From the NCBI RefSeq assembly GCF_014803405.1, contig NZ_JACYFG010000042.1, positions 1-64,000 of the forward strand: a stretch of 64,000 nt of DNA, read 5' to 3'. Below the pieces are notes generated by a model. The model made no database searches and was not told where the DNA came from. It saw only the letters and a list, made by a program, of their open reading frames with translations. A program made the position numbers and the translations under genes. Below, one piece after another: positions 35,494 to 40,841 of this stretch. Source of the DNA: Pelagicoccus enzymogenes. Lineage in GTDB: Bacteria; Verrucomicrobiota; Verrucomicrobiia; Opitutales; Opitutaceae. The first letter of the stretch is position 1, and each line of letters starts with the position of its first letter.

Positions 35494-35584
35494 AAATTTC
35501 TCCCGTTAGCTGGATTTTTACAACTGGCAAGCAAAGGGCTTTGGGCGGGTTTGTCGATCTGTTCTTTCCGACAAAGGGGATGTT

Positions 35585-35639
35585 GTCCGCTGGGACAGCG
35601 GACGCTACCTGTTGGGTTCGCGACCAAGGTCGCTCCTAC
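35585..35639. repeat. Two dispersed palindromic repeats in tandem
   Basis: GTCCGCTGGGACAGCGGAC (35585-35603; also 27791-27809 and a decayed copy at 41985-42003) is followed by a GCGACCAAGGTCGC-type unit (35619-35639). They lie between gmd and the terminator of the GNAT gene. Confidence 0.7.
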
Positions 35640-35644
35640 AAGAA

Positions 35645-35674
35645 AAACGCCCGTCGCGGGAGCGGCGGGCGTTT
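35645..35674 (-). terminator. Rho-independent terminator of the GNAT gene
   Basis: Arms AAACGCCCG and CGGGCGTTT form a 9-bp stem, followed on the minus strand by TTTTTCTTG. It lies 52 bases downstream of the GNAT stop codon. Confidence 0.75.
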
Positions 35675-35725
35675 GAAAGTATTTATTTGAAGAATCGCGG
35701 AGCAAGGCCGCTTCCCACAGTATTT

Positions 35726-36241
35726 TTAGGCGCAGCGGAGTTTGCCGGGACGAGCCGGGCGGCTGGGCTTGCTTTGCCAGTACCAGCGGGTTGGCGGTGC
35801 GGGCTCTTCTGCGTGAGTGGGCTCGGTTTCGAAGGAATGCTGGTGGCTGGGAAGCGGCGCCGTGATGTTGAGCAGGGCGCCGACGATCTCTTGGGCGTAG
35901 CCGCGTCCGAGCTCGCTGGATGCGAGCGCGTTGATGGGGCCGTGTCCCGAGTGGCGGGCGCTGAAGCCGGTGATGCCGATGGCGTGGCCGGTGTCCTTGT
36001 GGATGACGATCCACCAGCTTCCGGTGCCGCTGCGGCGGTCTTCCAGCATGCGAATGATGGCGGTGCAGGCTGCCTCGAGCGTACTGTTGGCAGGACCGAC
36101 GGTCGCATGGGCGAAGAAGGGATCGGCTGCAGCGAGCTCGTGCAGGGCGAACGCGTCTTCGAGGCGCGGGGTTCTCAAGATGAGTCGTTCCGTCTCGATG
36201 ATAGAGGGGGGAAGCGTCTCTGTTGGTCTTGCGTGTGTCAT
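35726..36241 (-). CDS. GNAT-family N-acetyltransferase (RimJ-like)
   Basis: This 171-residue protein resembles the RimJ/RimL acetyltransferase group at its N-terminus: IIETERLILRTPRLEDAFAL and later GSWWIVIHKDTGHAIGITGF. The usual acetyl-CoA loop is weak (SSELGRGYAQEIVGALLNI is the best candidate), and the Pro/Thr-rich C-terminus is unusual. A good ribosome-binding site (AGGAG, about 9 bases ahead) supports the start at 36241. It has its own terminator downstream and a structured leader upstream. Substrate unknown. Confidence 0.68.
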   Translation of the reverse strand: MTHARPTETLPPSIIETERLILRTPRLEDAFALHELAAADPFFAHATVGPANSTLEAACTAIIRMLEDRRSGTGSWWIVIHKDTGHAIGITGFSARHSGHGPINALASSELGRGYAQEIVGALLNITAPLPSHQHSFETEPTHAEEPAPPTRWYWQSKPSRPARPGKLRCA

Positions 36242-36311
36242 GTTGTGTTTCTCCTGAGTTGGTAAAGTTGTGATTGGTTTTCGAAATTGGATTTGTCTGG
36301 GCCAAAAAAAG

Positions 36312-36335
36312 GCCGAACGTCTTTTGGCGTTCGGC
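36312..36335 (-). terminator. Terminator-like hairpin in the GNAT leader (attenuator candidate)
   Basis: GCCGAACG (36312-36319) and CGTTCGGC (36328-36335) pair perfectly, followed on the minus strand by CCTTTTTTT. It stands about 70 bases before the GNAT start, with no minus-strand gene upstream to terminate, so premature termination in a leader is the natural reading. Confidence 0.65.
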
Positions 36336-36448
36336 TTGGCAGTGCGGTGTGTACAGATCGGATTTTGTTAGCGTTGTCGCTCCGGTATCCTTCCCGCGTG
36401 CCAAGCCATGGTCCATTGGCGGCAGGCCGCTGCGGCCTGTGCTTGGAC
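36333..36448 (-). ncRNA. Structured leader RNA candidate upstream of the GNAT gene
   Basis: Read on the minus strand, a hairpin with arms at 36444-36448/36411-36415 and 36432-36439/36423-36430 is followed by a domain closed by a perfect 9-bp stem, GGCTTGGCA (36407-36399) with TGCCAAGCC (36341-36333). Inside it, GCGG/CCGC, GGAT/ATCC and AGCG-ACAA-CGCT can pair in nested order. The 3' arm of the closing stem shares GCC (36333-36335) with the 5' arm of the terminator hairpin, so the two are mutually exclusive at that end. This is the layout of a riboswitch with a terminator platform. I could not match it to a known class. Confidence 0.5.
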
Positions 36449-36639
36449 TGCTTGATGATTGGATTGTTGCTGTGTTTGAGAACGTTTCATCGATGAGTTG
36501 ATGGCGTTAAAGCATCCACCGCGCCGAAAAGAAAGTTTTTTAATGAAAAGATAAGGTTACGACGGTTTAGCCTCTCTTTACGTTCTTTTAAATCCTTGTA
36601 TTGCAGGGGATTCACTTCTGGGCATCGTTTTGACCTGCA

Positions 36640-37920
36640 ATGCGAAAATTTACGCAGTTACTGGGCCTCTTTTTCAGCATGCAAGTCCTTGCTCTGGCCC
36701 TTGGGTCGGAGGATCGCGACTTCGAGGACTTGCGGGAGCGTACTTTCGAGGCGGCATGGAGCCAGGTCGGAGCCAGCTACTACGACGCGTCTTTCGGAGG
36801 GCTGGACTGGGATGCGGTGGGCGAGCGTTATCGGGCGAAGCTCCCGCAAGCGGCGAGCATGGACGAGGTGCGGGCTTTAATCTCGGAGATGATCTACCAG
36901 TTGGGGGACTCGCACTTGGCCTTGATTTCGTCGGACTACGATCCGCAGGAACTAATCAAACCTTGGGCAGGAGGGGCGGCTGGGGTGGACGCTTGTTACG
37001 CCGGTTCGCGCATCGTGTTTTACCGGCTCGATCCGGAGGGGGCGGCTTATCGCGCTGGCTTGCGGGATGGGGATGTCTTGCTGGAGATCGACGGGATCAA
37101 GGTAAAGGCGTTCAAGCGCTCCTTGGAGAAGACCGGGCAGCCGAAGCATGTCTTGAATTACAGTTTGATCACGGCATTGCTTTCCCGTCTTCGCACCGAG
37201 GCGGGCGACAAGGTCGACTTGCTCGTGCGCTCGCCGGACGGCAAGAAGCGTTCGCTCACGGTGGTGCAGGAGCGGTATCAGGGGCGTGAGACCGAGCCCT
37301 TGGGCAGGTTGGGGCGGATGCCCTTGGCGCTGGAGGCTTCGATTCTGGAAAACGGCGCGGGCTTCCTGCGGTTCAATCTTTGGTTTCCAGCCGTCATGCC
37401 GGAGGTGAGAGCCTTCATGGCCGAGCTGCCGGCGGATGCTCCAGGCTTGGTGATCGACTTGCGCGGCAATCCGGGGGGCATGATGGTGATGGCTGGTGGA
37501 TTGGCAGGCTTGCTTCTGGAAGAGCAAGCGACGCTTGGACGTACGACGCTGCGTTCCGGGCACATGAACGTGGTGGGCTTCCCGCAACGCCGTACCTTCC
37601 ATGGCAAGGTAGCGATCCTTGTCGACGAGACGAGCGTTTCGACGAGCGAGGTATTCGCCATCGGCATGCAGGAGCTCGGGCGGGCGAGAGTGTTTGGGCA
37701 ACCGACTCCCGGGGCGGCGCTTCCTTCGGTCTTCTTTGCTTTGCCTAATGGGGACTCGCTGCAGATCGCCCTCGGAGACTTCAAGACGCCTCAGGGCGTG
37801 AGCCTGGAAGCTCGCGGAGTGATCCCTGACGAAATTGTGACGATTTCGCCGGTTGATCTTTCCTCGGGGAAGGACAGTGTTCTTATCGCAGCTCTTAACT
37901 GGATCCATCAAACCAACTGA
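36640..37920 (+). CDS. S41-family peptidase with PDZ domain, exported
   Basis: This 426-residue protein has a signal peptide (about residues 1-22), an N-terminal helical part, a PDZ-like segment (PEGAAYRAGLRDGDVLLEIDG), and an S41 domain (GFLRFNLWF, VIDLRGNPGG). The nucleophile region is ETSVSTSEVF (codons 330-339, Ser334 likely). The Lys expected about 25 residues on in Ctp-type enzymes (GKGT) is replaced: the text reads QPTPGAALPS. It may use a tricorn-like set of residues or be weakly active. It is followed closely by 37926-38669, so the two may form an operon. Confidence 0.85.
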   Translation: MRKFTQLLGLFFSMQVLALALGSEDRDFEDLRERTFEAAWSQVGASYYDASFGGLDWDAVGERYRAKLPQAASMDEVRALISEMIYQLGDSHLALISSDYDPQELIKPWAGGAAGVDACYAGSRIVFYRLDPEGAAYRAGLRDGDVLLEIDGIKVKAFKRSLEKTGQPKHVLNYSLITALLSRLRTEAGDKVDLLVRSPDGKKRSLTVVQERYQGRETEPLGRLGRMPLALEASILENGAGFLRFNLWFPAVMPEVRAFMAELPADAPGLVIDLRGNPGGMMVMAGGLAGLLLEEQATLGRTTLRSGHMNVVGFPQRRTFHGKVAILVDETSVSTSEVFAIGMQELGRARVFGQPTPGAALPSVFFALPNGDSLQIALGDFKTPQGVSLEARGVIPDEIVTISPVDLSSGKDSVLIAALNWIHQTN

Positions 37921-38698: not shown

Positions 38699-39130
38699 AT
38701 GAGTCCAAATAAACTAATCGTATCTGCTATCGCATTTTTCTGCCTCGCCATGGGAGCTTCGGCCGCCCTCGAGCGCCAGCCGTCTCCGGAAGGAGCCGAG
38801 GCCTACATTATCTCGCCTGCCGATGGCGAAGTGGTGGGGAAGACCTTCACGGTTCGCTTTGGCTTGAAAGGGATGGGAGTCGCTCCTGCCGGTATCGACA
38901 AAGCGAATACGGGGCACCATCATCTTCTCATCAACGCCGAGTCGCTGCCGGCCATGGATACGCCGATGCCGATGACGGACAGCCTCAAGCATTTCGGGGG
39001 CGGACAAACCGAAGTCGAGTTGACGCTTCCTCCGGGCAAGCATCGCCTGCAGTTGGTTCTGGGCGACTACTTGCACATTCCGCATCAGCCGCCGGTGATT
39101 TCGGAAGAGATTACCGTTACGGTGAAGTAG
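38699..39130 (+). CDS. DUF4399 protein, exported
   Basis: This 143-residue protein has a signal peptide (about 1-22) and a DUF4399 domain: YIISPADGEVVGKTFTVRFG, GVAPAGIDKANTGHHHLLI and LPPGKHRLQLVLGDYLHIPH. The His-rich HHHLLI block is a mark of the family, which often occurs in rod-, envelope- or metal-linked contexts, but its function is unknown. It is the last gene before a strong terminator. Confidence 0.85.
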   Translation: MSPNKLIVSAIAFFCLAMGASAALERQPSPEGAEAYIISPADGEVVGKTFTVRFGLKGMGVAPAGIDKANTGHHHLLINAESLPAMDTPMPMTDSLKHFGGGQTEVELTLPPGKHRLQLVLGDYLHIPHQPPVISEEITVTVK

Positions 39131-39187
39131 GTGGCGCGATCCCGACTTCGCGGGTCGTTTCCTGTTCGGTCGTTCCTTTTTTCGCTA

Positions 39188-39225
39188 AACGCCTGTCCGG
39201 TTTTTCGGGCAGGCGTTTTTTTTTG
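39188..39225 (+). terminator. Rho-independent terminator
   Basis: AACGCCTG and CAGGCGTT arms (inner CCGG/CGG pairs too) are followed by a T9-like run. It closes the S41-LolA-like-DUF4399 gene group. Confidence 0.85.
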
Positions 39226-39731
39226 GCATCCGCTAAATGCAGTGGAAATTGCTGGGTAGGTGTTCGATCAATTTTCAATTGTGGGAAGCGGCCTTGTGCC
39301 GCGATTGGGCAGAATCGATCGTGCTACAAGGGCACTCCCCACTGTGCAATCCCCGTCCCCCGCGAAATCGCGATGAACCTTGTGGGTTACGCACCTATGA
39401 AGTCTTCGCTTTTCGAGTCCTTCCGAGAATGTTCCTGCAGCGCGGACGACGCGGCCGTCGCCCCTCCATTGTTGCTCTTGTTTCCGCTTGCAGGCTTTAC
39501 GTAGAAAACGCTTGTGCGTTCTCGTGCCGGCGATAGCTCTTAGAGACAGTCCAATCATTTATACTAGCCTCTTCTGGGTTGCAGCCTGCTGCAGACCGCA
39601 GTGCAAACCTGTTTATCAGCGCGACGCGGTCTGGACTAAGGTCTAACCCTACAGAAACTTGACTTATTGGACCATCTCTTATGCAGCGGCCAGTCGCTGC
39701 CGTGTCCTCGCATCGTTAACTTTCCTCTTTC
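39226..39731. other. Intergenic region with a long palindromic repeat
   Basis: This 506-base gap contains a repeat unit at 39281-39343 (GTGGGAAGCGGCCTTGTGCC on one side, a decayed partner ending in CTCCCCAC on the other). Related units are at 44210-44273 and 52211-52314, and a half-unit at 35691-35721. No gene is supported here. Confidence 0.65.
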
Positions 39732-40841
39732 ATGAACGAATCCCCAGCTCCTTTTGAAGGCGAACCCTCTCTTGCTGCTCCCGCTGCGGTCGCCAATATT
39801 GACTATCCCTTCAGCTTCACCGGCCAAACGGGGGAGTACTTTCGTATTTGGATTGTGAATATGCTTCTGACGCTGGTGACCCTCGGCTTCTACACGCCAT
39901 GGGCTCGAGTGCGTACGCGGCGATACTTCCACGCGAACACCCATTTGGACGGGCATGCTTTCGACTACTTGGCGAAGCCGATCAACATTTTGTGGGGATA
40001 CTTGATCGTGCTCTTCATCGTCGGCGGCTATTATGCAGCTGGCTTCTTCAACCCCATGTTCACTATTCCGTTTTTCCTGATCTATGTTTTTGCAGGACCT
40101 TGGGTGGTCTACAAGGCCATGCGATTCAAGGCTCACAACACGAGCTACCGCAACGTGCGTTTCCAGTTCAGCGGTACGGTGGGCGACGCCTATGTGATCT
40201 ATTTGGCGATGGCTCTGCTTATTCCGTTCACCGCTGGCTTGATCATCCCTTATTGGATCATGAAGCAAAAGGAATACTTCTATAAGAACCTGAGCTTCGG
40301 CGGCCGGAAGTTCGATTTCACGCCGCAAGCGGGCGAGTACTACGTGACCTACATCGTGGCGGCGGTGATCACGGTTGGAATCTATGGGCTCGTTATCTTT
40401 GGGGCGATGATGACTGTATTTGCCGGAGCTGGCTTAGGGGCTGCCGAAGGTGGCGAGCCGCCGGACGCTGCGGTGTTTGGCTTCCTGTTTGCCCTCTACC
40501 TTCCGATGATTTTCGGAATGGTCTTCGTGCAGATCTACGTTTACGTATCGCTTTTCAACTACAACTTGGGGCGGCTTCTCGTGCAGCAGACTGCCTTCAA
40601 ATCTTCCTTGAAGGTGGGCAGGTTCTACTGGATTTCATTGACCAATATTTTTGCGACCGTCTTCAGCTTGGGATTGCTCGCTCCTTGGGCTGCTATCCGC
40701 AAGACGCGCTACTTGGCGGAGTCGGTTGAGCTGAACCACCCAGAAACGGGCTTCGGTGAATTCGTGGTCCAAGCAGGCGAGGACCAGTCCTCCATTGGCG
40801 ATGCGGCTGCGGACATGTTTGAACTCGATATCGGATGGTAG
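39732..40841 (+). CDS. DUF898 (YjgN-family) membrane protein
   Basis: This 369-residue integral membrane protein has about six or seven hydrophobic segments and the DUF898 repeats: FSFTGQTGEYFRIWIVNMLL, LGFYTPWARVRTRRYFHANT, and again at SLGLLAPWAAIRKTRYL. It overlaps the M48 peptidase gene by 7 bases. YjgN-like genes often precede an M48 peptidase, which suggests a shared role at the envelope. Function unknown. Confidence 0.85.
   Translation: MNESPAPFEGEPSLAAPAAVANIDYPFSFTGQTGEYFRIWIVNMLLTLVTLGFYTPWARVRTRRYFHANTHLDGHAFDYLAKPINILWGYLIVLFIVGGYYAAGFFNPMFTIPFFLIYVFAGPWVVYKAMRFKAHNTSYRNVRFQFSGTVGDAYVIYLAMALLIPFTAGLIIPYWIMKQKEYFYKNLSFGGRKFDFTPQAGEYYVTYIVAAVITVGIYGLVIFGAMMTVFAGAGLGAAEGGEPPDAAVFGFLFALYLPMIFGMVFVQIYVYVSLFNYNLGRLLVQQTAFKSSLKVGRFYWISLTNIFATVFSLGLLAPWAAIRKTRYLAESVELNHPETGFGEFVVQAGEDQSSIGDAAADMFELDIGW

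Follow-up and report, generated by a model that had tools for sequence, protein, structure and literature searches.

A likely ribosome-mediated transcription attenuator with a Trp-containing leader peptide upstream of GNAT and methyltransferase genes in one family of Verrucomicrobiota

Main finding

The structured leader that precedes a GNAT gene in the window, the whole stretch of 64,000 nucleotides of Pelagicoccus enzymogenes DNA that was analysed here, is likely to be a ribosome-mediated transcription attenuator with a Trp-containing leader peptide, and not a ligand aptamer. As far as can be read from the sequences, a short ORF, its Trp codon, an antiterminator-like stem and an intrinsic terminator follow each other in a fixed order and are conserved together. 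From this arrangement we infer a transcription start, translation of the ORF, a switch that would operate in the cell, and the polarity of this switch. The translation of the short ORF would probably decide whether the terminator ends transcription.

Anatomy of the leader in the window

The elements of the leader, all on the minus strand, are listed here in the direction of transcription.

36539-36553, minus strand: conserved box TATCTTTTCATTAAA, about 50 nt upstream of the ORF, found by sequence conservation
36368-36490, minus strand: leader peptide ORF MKRSQTQQQSNHQAVQAQAAAACRQWTMAWHAGRIPERQR, 40 codons, ATG at 36490 and stop TAA at 36368-36370; frame read in seven members of the genus
36411-36448, minus strand: hairpin within the ORF, 5' of the first Trp codon, a possible pause hairpin (MFE fold)
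36413-36415, minus strand: first Trp codon (W26), kept in 28 of 28 members
36401-36403, minus strand: second Trp codon (W30), within the antiterminator arm
36400-36407, minus strand: arm B, GGCTTGGC, coding (Ala-Trp codons), 5' half of the antiterminator-like stem, pairs with arm C
36394-36397, minus strand: 5' side of the inner helix, GCGG
36344-36347, minus strand: 3' side of the inner helix, CCGC
36333-36340, minus strand: arm C, GCCAAGCC, non-coding, 3' half of the stem, shares GCC with the terminator
36312-36335, minus strand: intrinsic terminator hairpin GCCGAACG/CGTTCGGC (terminator scan)
36304-36310, minus strand: T7 run of the terminator
35726-36241, minus strand: GNAT protein gene, 171 aa, with the C-terminal part of the domain apparently missing (PF13302 positions 1-108 of 138; structural model)

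An earlier note on this DNA had described a hairpin, a 9-bp closing stem with nested helices, and a terminator that runs into this stem. Much of this description holds: the stem GGCTTGGCA/TGCCAAGCC joins 36399-36407 to 36333-36341, the hairpin and the nested GCGG/CCGC helix lie where they had been placed, and the terminator with its T7 run has three bases (GCC) in common with the closing stem. The inner GGAT/ATCC and AGCG-ACAA-CGCT helices, however, are not conserved among the relatives of this leader. The note had also argued that no upstream minus-strand gene needs the terminator, thereby overlooking the short ORF inside the leader itself, which ends in the loop of the main stem.

The leader of the window folds at -57 kcal/mol, against a mean of -41.2 (sd 3.3) for shuffled sequences (z -4.76), and none of 200 shuffles folds as well. 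The terminator alone is about what chance provides by a simple scan, with two sites found and 2.7 expected in 35500-36800, whereas it is unusual for a terminator to be combined with such a stem. Out of 76 terminator-like sites across 284 kb of this genome, the terminator of the leader alone has an upstream complement, defined as 7-8 nt complementary to a stretch running into the 5' arm of the terminator (a second match of the script was an edge artefact). About 60 nt separate the terminator from the GNAT gene.

The box TATCTTTTCATTAAA is kept in the members of the genus and occurs in an altered form in the second genus with this leader (g13), whose upstream gene differs; it is perhaps part of the leader promoter. 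A search for a sigma-70-like promoter across 35500-36800 found none. Around the T-run of the window (36302-36315, minus strand), the arrangement GGCC-T7-GGCC would allow a small hairpin, a feature that was not seen in the two leaders of g13.

Distribution and common plan of the leaders

Covariance searches recovered 28 leaders from ten genera of one family. The earlier note had expected the leader to recur upstream of acetyltransferase genes, and so it does in 10 of the 28 cases, but GNAT is the minority target, as the other 18 leaders stand before a methyltransferase gene. The GNAT-linked leaders are present in seven of eight Pelagicoccus genomes and in two further genera. A covariance model of seven leaders led to the first of these (g13; two of two genomes, GNAT gene downstream), in which the inner helix reads GTGG/CCAC in place of GCGG/CCGC in both genomes. 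A nine-sequence model led to the third GNAT genus (g9) and also to a genus with a methyltransferase gene downstream (g8). In g9, the stem is GTCCGGTTTGG/CCAAGCCGGAC, its overlap with the terminator extends further than in the other leaders, and the inner helix is AAGTT/AACTT.

An eleven-sequence model, applied with E up to 0.001 to 236 genomes of the family, returned 39 places. These comprise 27 leaders, 11 ordinary terminators after genes, which were rejected (gene names, e.g., enolase, were read from the translation), and one weak match. The same model yielded one further leader (G277) in g8, a genus in which 3 of 10 genomes carry it. No further genus was confirmed by the nine-sequence model (R2) in samples of 372 genomes of the order, 384 of the class and 387 of the phylum; R2 is the narrower model and misses many methyltransferase leaders, such as that of G208 found later by the eleven-sequence model (R3), which was applied within the family. 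The other weak covariance matches that were opened proved to be chance, apart from the members named here. The weak match among the 39 places, G003:C71:595591-595664, has an E of 1.4e-4 and is the second one that the model gave in this Pelagicoccus genome.

All 28 leaders follow a common plan. The start codon lies 23-27 codons ahead of the Trp codon, the Trp codon lies 8-15 nt 5' of arm B, and the stop codon of the ORF falls between arms B and C, at shifting places in the loop. The start codon is ATG in 25 leaders, and two GTG and one TTG were accepted by hand; in each of the 25 members that passed automatically, one frame alone met all criteria. The presence of the Trp codon in 28 of 28 leaders is in part a matter of construction, since a TGG in the vicinity of arm B was a criterion of the script. 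In g9, both Trp codons are present, but they are positioned 5' of the arm and not in it.

Predicted consequences of ribosome position

The 5' arm of the stem consists of codons of the ORF and the stop codon lies in the loop in all 28 leaders; ribosome position is therefore the natural control. In the model that we propose, arm B (the codons around Trp 26-30) of the nascent leader RNA could pair with arm C, which adjoins the terminator and also supplies the first bases of its hairpin. B:C pairing would thereby weaken the terminator. With arm B free, the B:C stem would form and the downstream GNAT or methyltransferase gene would be transcribed; a ribosome that occupies the first Trp codon or has only just moved beyond it would cover arm B, allow the full terminator to form, and stop transcription. 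The hairpin ahead of the Trp codon might be a site of pausing that keeps ribosome and polymerase in step. We infer that either slow decoding at the Trp codons or the nascent peptide would act as the signal; charged tRNA-Trp, a nascent-peptide effect and the general speed of translation are the candidates for what is sensed.

We moved a ribosome footprint codon by codon along the leaders and computed the pairing of the remaining RNA at equilibrium, a simplification given that these stems form during transcription. In the GNAT group, the mean probability of the terminator base is 0.40 in the free RNA and 0.20-0.56 with the ribosome up to W1-2; it reaches 0.85 at W1-1, 0.89 at W1, and 0.98-0.99 from W1+1 onward. 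The corresponding means of the methyltransferase group are 0.77 in the free RNA, 0.92 at W1, and 1.00 from W1+1 onward. Because the terminator probability rises at the first Trp codon under masking, this codon is predicted to mark the switch point.

Individual leaders depart from these means. In L105 and L118, the stem is still favoured with the A-site at W1, and in several leaders of the GNAT group the stem remains available when the ribosome is at the stop codon. The overlap of stem and terminator is short in most members. In 11 of 28 leaders (10 of 18 in the methyltransferase group, 1 of 10 in the GNAT group), the terminator base has a probability of at least 0.9 already in the free RNA, and there the antiterminator could consequently act only kinetically. 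In g13, a TraB-like gene lies upstream of the leader on the same strand and could use the terminator. The polarity of the switch, in which a ribosome located at the Trp codons leads to termination, would be the reverse of that in classical trp attenuation and is the least secure part of the model. We only tentatively entertain the wider idea of a family-wide class with inverted logic, in which ribosomes at the Trp codons would shut the gene off while ribosomes held upstream or absent would permit read-through. Such a class would link translation capacity to the GNAT and methyltransferase proteins, which may share a target such as the translation machinery.

Genes downstream of the leaders

The Acetyltransf_3 domain was confirmed in four of four GNAT proteins checked, out of ten, and Methyltransf_11 was found just above the cut-off in six of six methyltransferases checked, out of 18. 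The methyltransferases were recognised by the motif F-[FYH]-G-R-[ST]-L-x-E-Y in 17 cases; the remaining gene (L113), which is broken by N, was recognised by a second motif. PF13302 is matched over only positions 1-108 (or 107) of 138 by the GNAT proteins from the window, from G019 and from g9, while the match of the G189 protein is full length; this comparison concerns the genes at 35726-36241 of the window, L087 5459-5995 and L105 2549-3097. The AlphaFold model of the window protein ends after the helix 115-127 and then continues in disorder; the C-terminal half-sheet of the GNAT fold hence seems to be missing. This truncated-looking protein is conserved nonetheless. The solved structures closest to the model are ribosomal-protein acetyltransferases, with a TM of about 0.55, which gives a hint that the target of the GNAT protein may be part of the translation machinery. 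The position of one type of leader before two unrelated enzymes offers a handle on what these uncharacterised proteins respond to.

Evidence for coding by the short ORF

Over the 28 members, the sense frame contains no stop codon, against 21 and 8 in the other two frames, and none of 500 column shuffles is stop-free. The peptide itself is unconserved except around the Trp codon. Its pN/pS is 0.96 over 22 codons when all 28 members are taken together, and 0.84 in the GNAT group, with 33 of 500 shuffles as low; a codon test on seven sequences gave 0.76, with 120 of 1000 shuffles as low. The seven leaders of the genus keep the frame W-x-x-A-W-x-A and little else of the peptide. A kept frame with free residues is, at the level of these sequences, the pattern of a leader peptide. 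A second frame is also open in Pelagicoccus taken alone, and frame 2 is likewise stop-free in the N-terminal codons of a group of 13 methyltransferase leaders, and for this reason the coding assignment rests on the wider set.

Within these 13 methyltransferase leaders, the stretch around the Trp codon (K-R-A-R-W-H-G) is under purifying selection, with a pN/pS of 0.19 and 1 of 500 shuffles as low. Nascent-peptide arrest is the mode of control in erm leaders, with bmrB as another example, and the conserved stretch is a point in favour of a reading that keeps the anatomy described above but in which the signal would be arrest of the nascent peptide by a small molecule or a ribosome inhibitor instead of slow Trp decoding. 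The downstream proteins point the same way, given the proximity of the GNAT model to ribosomal-protein acetyltransferases, the presence of a microcin immunity acetyltransferase among its best matches, and the matches of the G189 protein to RimJ, RimL and drug-acetyltransferase models, although the latter are far below the cut-offs. The GNAT group, however, retains little beyond the Trp residues, and the motif differs between the two groups. We thus regard peptide arrest as possible, yet rather unlikely, even if it is the strongest of the competing readings.

The conserved start codon and open frame, with a terminator right behind and only about 60 nt left before the GNAT gene, might also be expected of a gene for a small functional protein with its own terminator; the stem would then be incidental and the downstream gene would possess its own promoter. 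The dominance of the terminator in the free RNA of 11 leaders fits this view as well. A functional protein is, however, hard to reconcile with a pN/pS near 1 over most of the peptide and of 1.45 over its N-terminal part in the 13 methyltransferase leaders, or with a peptide length and C-terminus that vary. Nor does it account for arm C, which is invariant in the seven aligned Pelagicoccus rows though non-coding and covaries with the coding arm B, or for the GNAT or methyltransferase gene that comes next in 28 of 28 cases. We therefore consider a microprotein gene improbable.

Covariation of the stem and the terminator

The earlier note had proposed a covariance search in related genomes, and the outcome bears out the expectation of a conserved structure. 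In the alignment of the 28 sequences, 93.7% of the cells pair, and 41 cells carry double changes, against 15.2 in shuffles (none of 500 as high) and 3-10 in slid controls; these cells count sequences and not events, and the number of pair types (13, against 14.1) is not above that of shuffles. A first pair count, with two genera only and a mis-registered inner helix, had given no covariation, and a second one with 11 sequences a modest signal. Helix 1 is 98.7% paired over the 28 members, and one of its pairs changes from U-A to C-G in two of them (L118 and L124), a change that turns the second Trp codon into an Arg codon and leaves the first Trp codon in place. Helix 2 is paired in 68.8% of its cells. 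Three of the five pairs of helix 3, the terminator, carry double changes, mostly as one split between the GNAT and the methyltransferase group. Terminator arms and a T-run could be aligned in all 28 members.

Upstream of the stem, the hairpin stretch ahead of the Trp codon folds better than codon shuffles by z < -1 in 21 of 28 leaders, with a mean z of -1.7. An alternative 1:2 pairing of at least 7 nt is present in 10 of 28 leaders, with 5.3 expected from codon shuffles. As regards the classical 1:2/2:3/3:4 logic, complements to segment 1 stand out in L106 (10 nt) and L137 (11 nt) but do not reach significance when all 28 members are considered, and this logic was set aside.

The stem sequence, GGCTTGG/CCAAGCC, is nearly invariant across the members, as one would expect if an RNA-binding protein recognised the B:C stem and acted as the antiterminator. 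A protein-dependent antiterminator would, however, leave the kept start codon, the Trp codon and the position of the stop codon unexplained, and we consider it very improbable. Slightly less credible still is a ligand-binding riboswitch with the stem domain as the aptamer and the terminator as the expression platform, because the strong and conserved stem overlapping the terminator is accompanied by a loop, the would-be aptamer core, that varies in length and sequence and holds the ORF stop at shifting places, while the most conserved bases are those of the stem arms and the Trp codon.

The Rfam searches point in the same direction. The window contains no match at the gathering score, its leader giving two chance-level matches below threshold, and eight member loci gave no match at threshold and a single one below it (CyaR on L105, 31.3 bits, gathering score 47). 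What survives of the earlier interpretation is hence an attenuator-like leader of a class absent from Rfam, and not its ligand-controlled variant, as the 5' arm of the stem is made of codons of a conserved ORF. The case warns that half of a conserved fold resembling a riboswitch may be coding sequence.

Decay of the leader in one Pelagicoccus genome

Homologous GNAT genes without the leader had been named in the earlier note as evidence against it. One such ortholog exists within the genus, in the eighth Pelagicoccus genome (G005; leader L084, about 1270-1470), whereas the leader is kept in the other seven. In G005, the GNAT gene is kept and the ORF is still open, while GGG and CGA replace the two Trp codons (the first changing from TGG to GGG), arm B reads GGCTCGA, and the T-run is replaced by TTTTCC. 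The leader no longer folds better than shuffled sequences (z +1.18). To judge by its sequence, G005 has lost the Trp codons, the stem and the T-run together.

Comparison with known attenuators

In the classical trp segment scheme, the control codons lie in segment 1, and stalling favours antitermination. The leaders described here resemble attenuators of the trp and his type in their short ORF with control codons, in their putatively competing antiterminator and terminator, and in the use of the ribosome position as the presumed switch. Unlike in the trp type, the Trp codons are found in or next to the antiterminator arm instead of further 5' in segment 1, their occupation by a ribosome is predicted to bring about termination (on group means; L105 and L118 deviate at W1), the targets carry GNAT or methyltransferase domains and not domains of Trp biosynthesis, and support for a 1:2 hairpin is not general. 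The leaders thus lack two features that define classical trp-type attenuators, control codons upstream of the antiterminator arm and a matching biosynthetic target. The amino-acid operon attenuators, with E. coli trpL and its relatives, are treated as ribosome-mediated transcription attenuation (PMC1183508).

Closer in its target is the bmrB leader of bmrCD, a drug exporter of B. subtilis, in which an ORF of 53 codons overlaps regulatory stem-loops and its translation is needed for control (PMC4191407). Both systems have a leader ORF that overlaps regulatory stem-loops and a non-biosynthetic target, a likeness of arrangement. Loss of leader translation lowered expression in the bmrB system (PMC4191407), an effect that need not hold here. 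The ilvB-II motif of Corynebacterium was at first a candidate structured RNA and was later identified as an upstream ORF, the ORF lengths being multiples of three (PMC10272879). The path from a candidate structured RNA to an upstream ORF is the same; in ilvB-II, however, the codons are those of branched-chain amino acids, the biosynthetic target matches, and the phylum is another one. Among the matches listed in a literature search on leader peptides and attenuation in Pelagicoccus, Opitut- and Verrucomicrob-, judged by title and start of abstract, no case was described. Our analysis adds a structured, covarying family of putative leader-peptide attenuators in Verrucomicrobiota.

Genomic neighbourhood

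Genes with DUF4399 and DUF898 domains adjoin the leader locus both in the window (38699-40838) and in g13 (L087 7399-9073), and the locus is therefore marked as an orthologous place. The gene next to the leader differs between the two, since a TraB/gumN gene is found there in g13 and an S41 peptidase gene in the window. A recurring-looking locus of methyltransferase leaders (L120, L129, L130 and L132) carries a coiled-coil-like gene before the leader and a gene for an ABM-domain monooxygenase after the methyltransferase gene; the ABM domain was identified by Pfam in L130 and by the same motif in L132.
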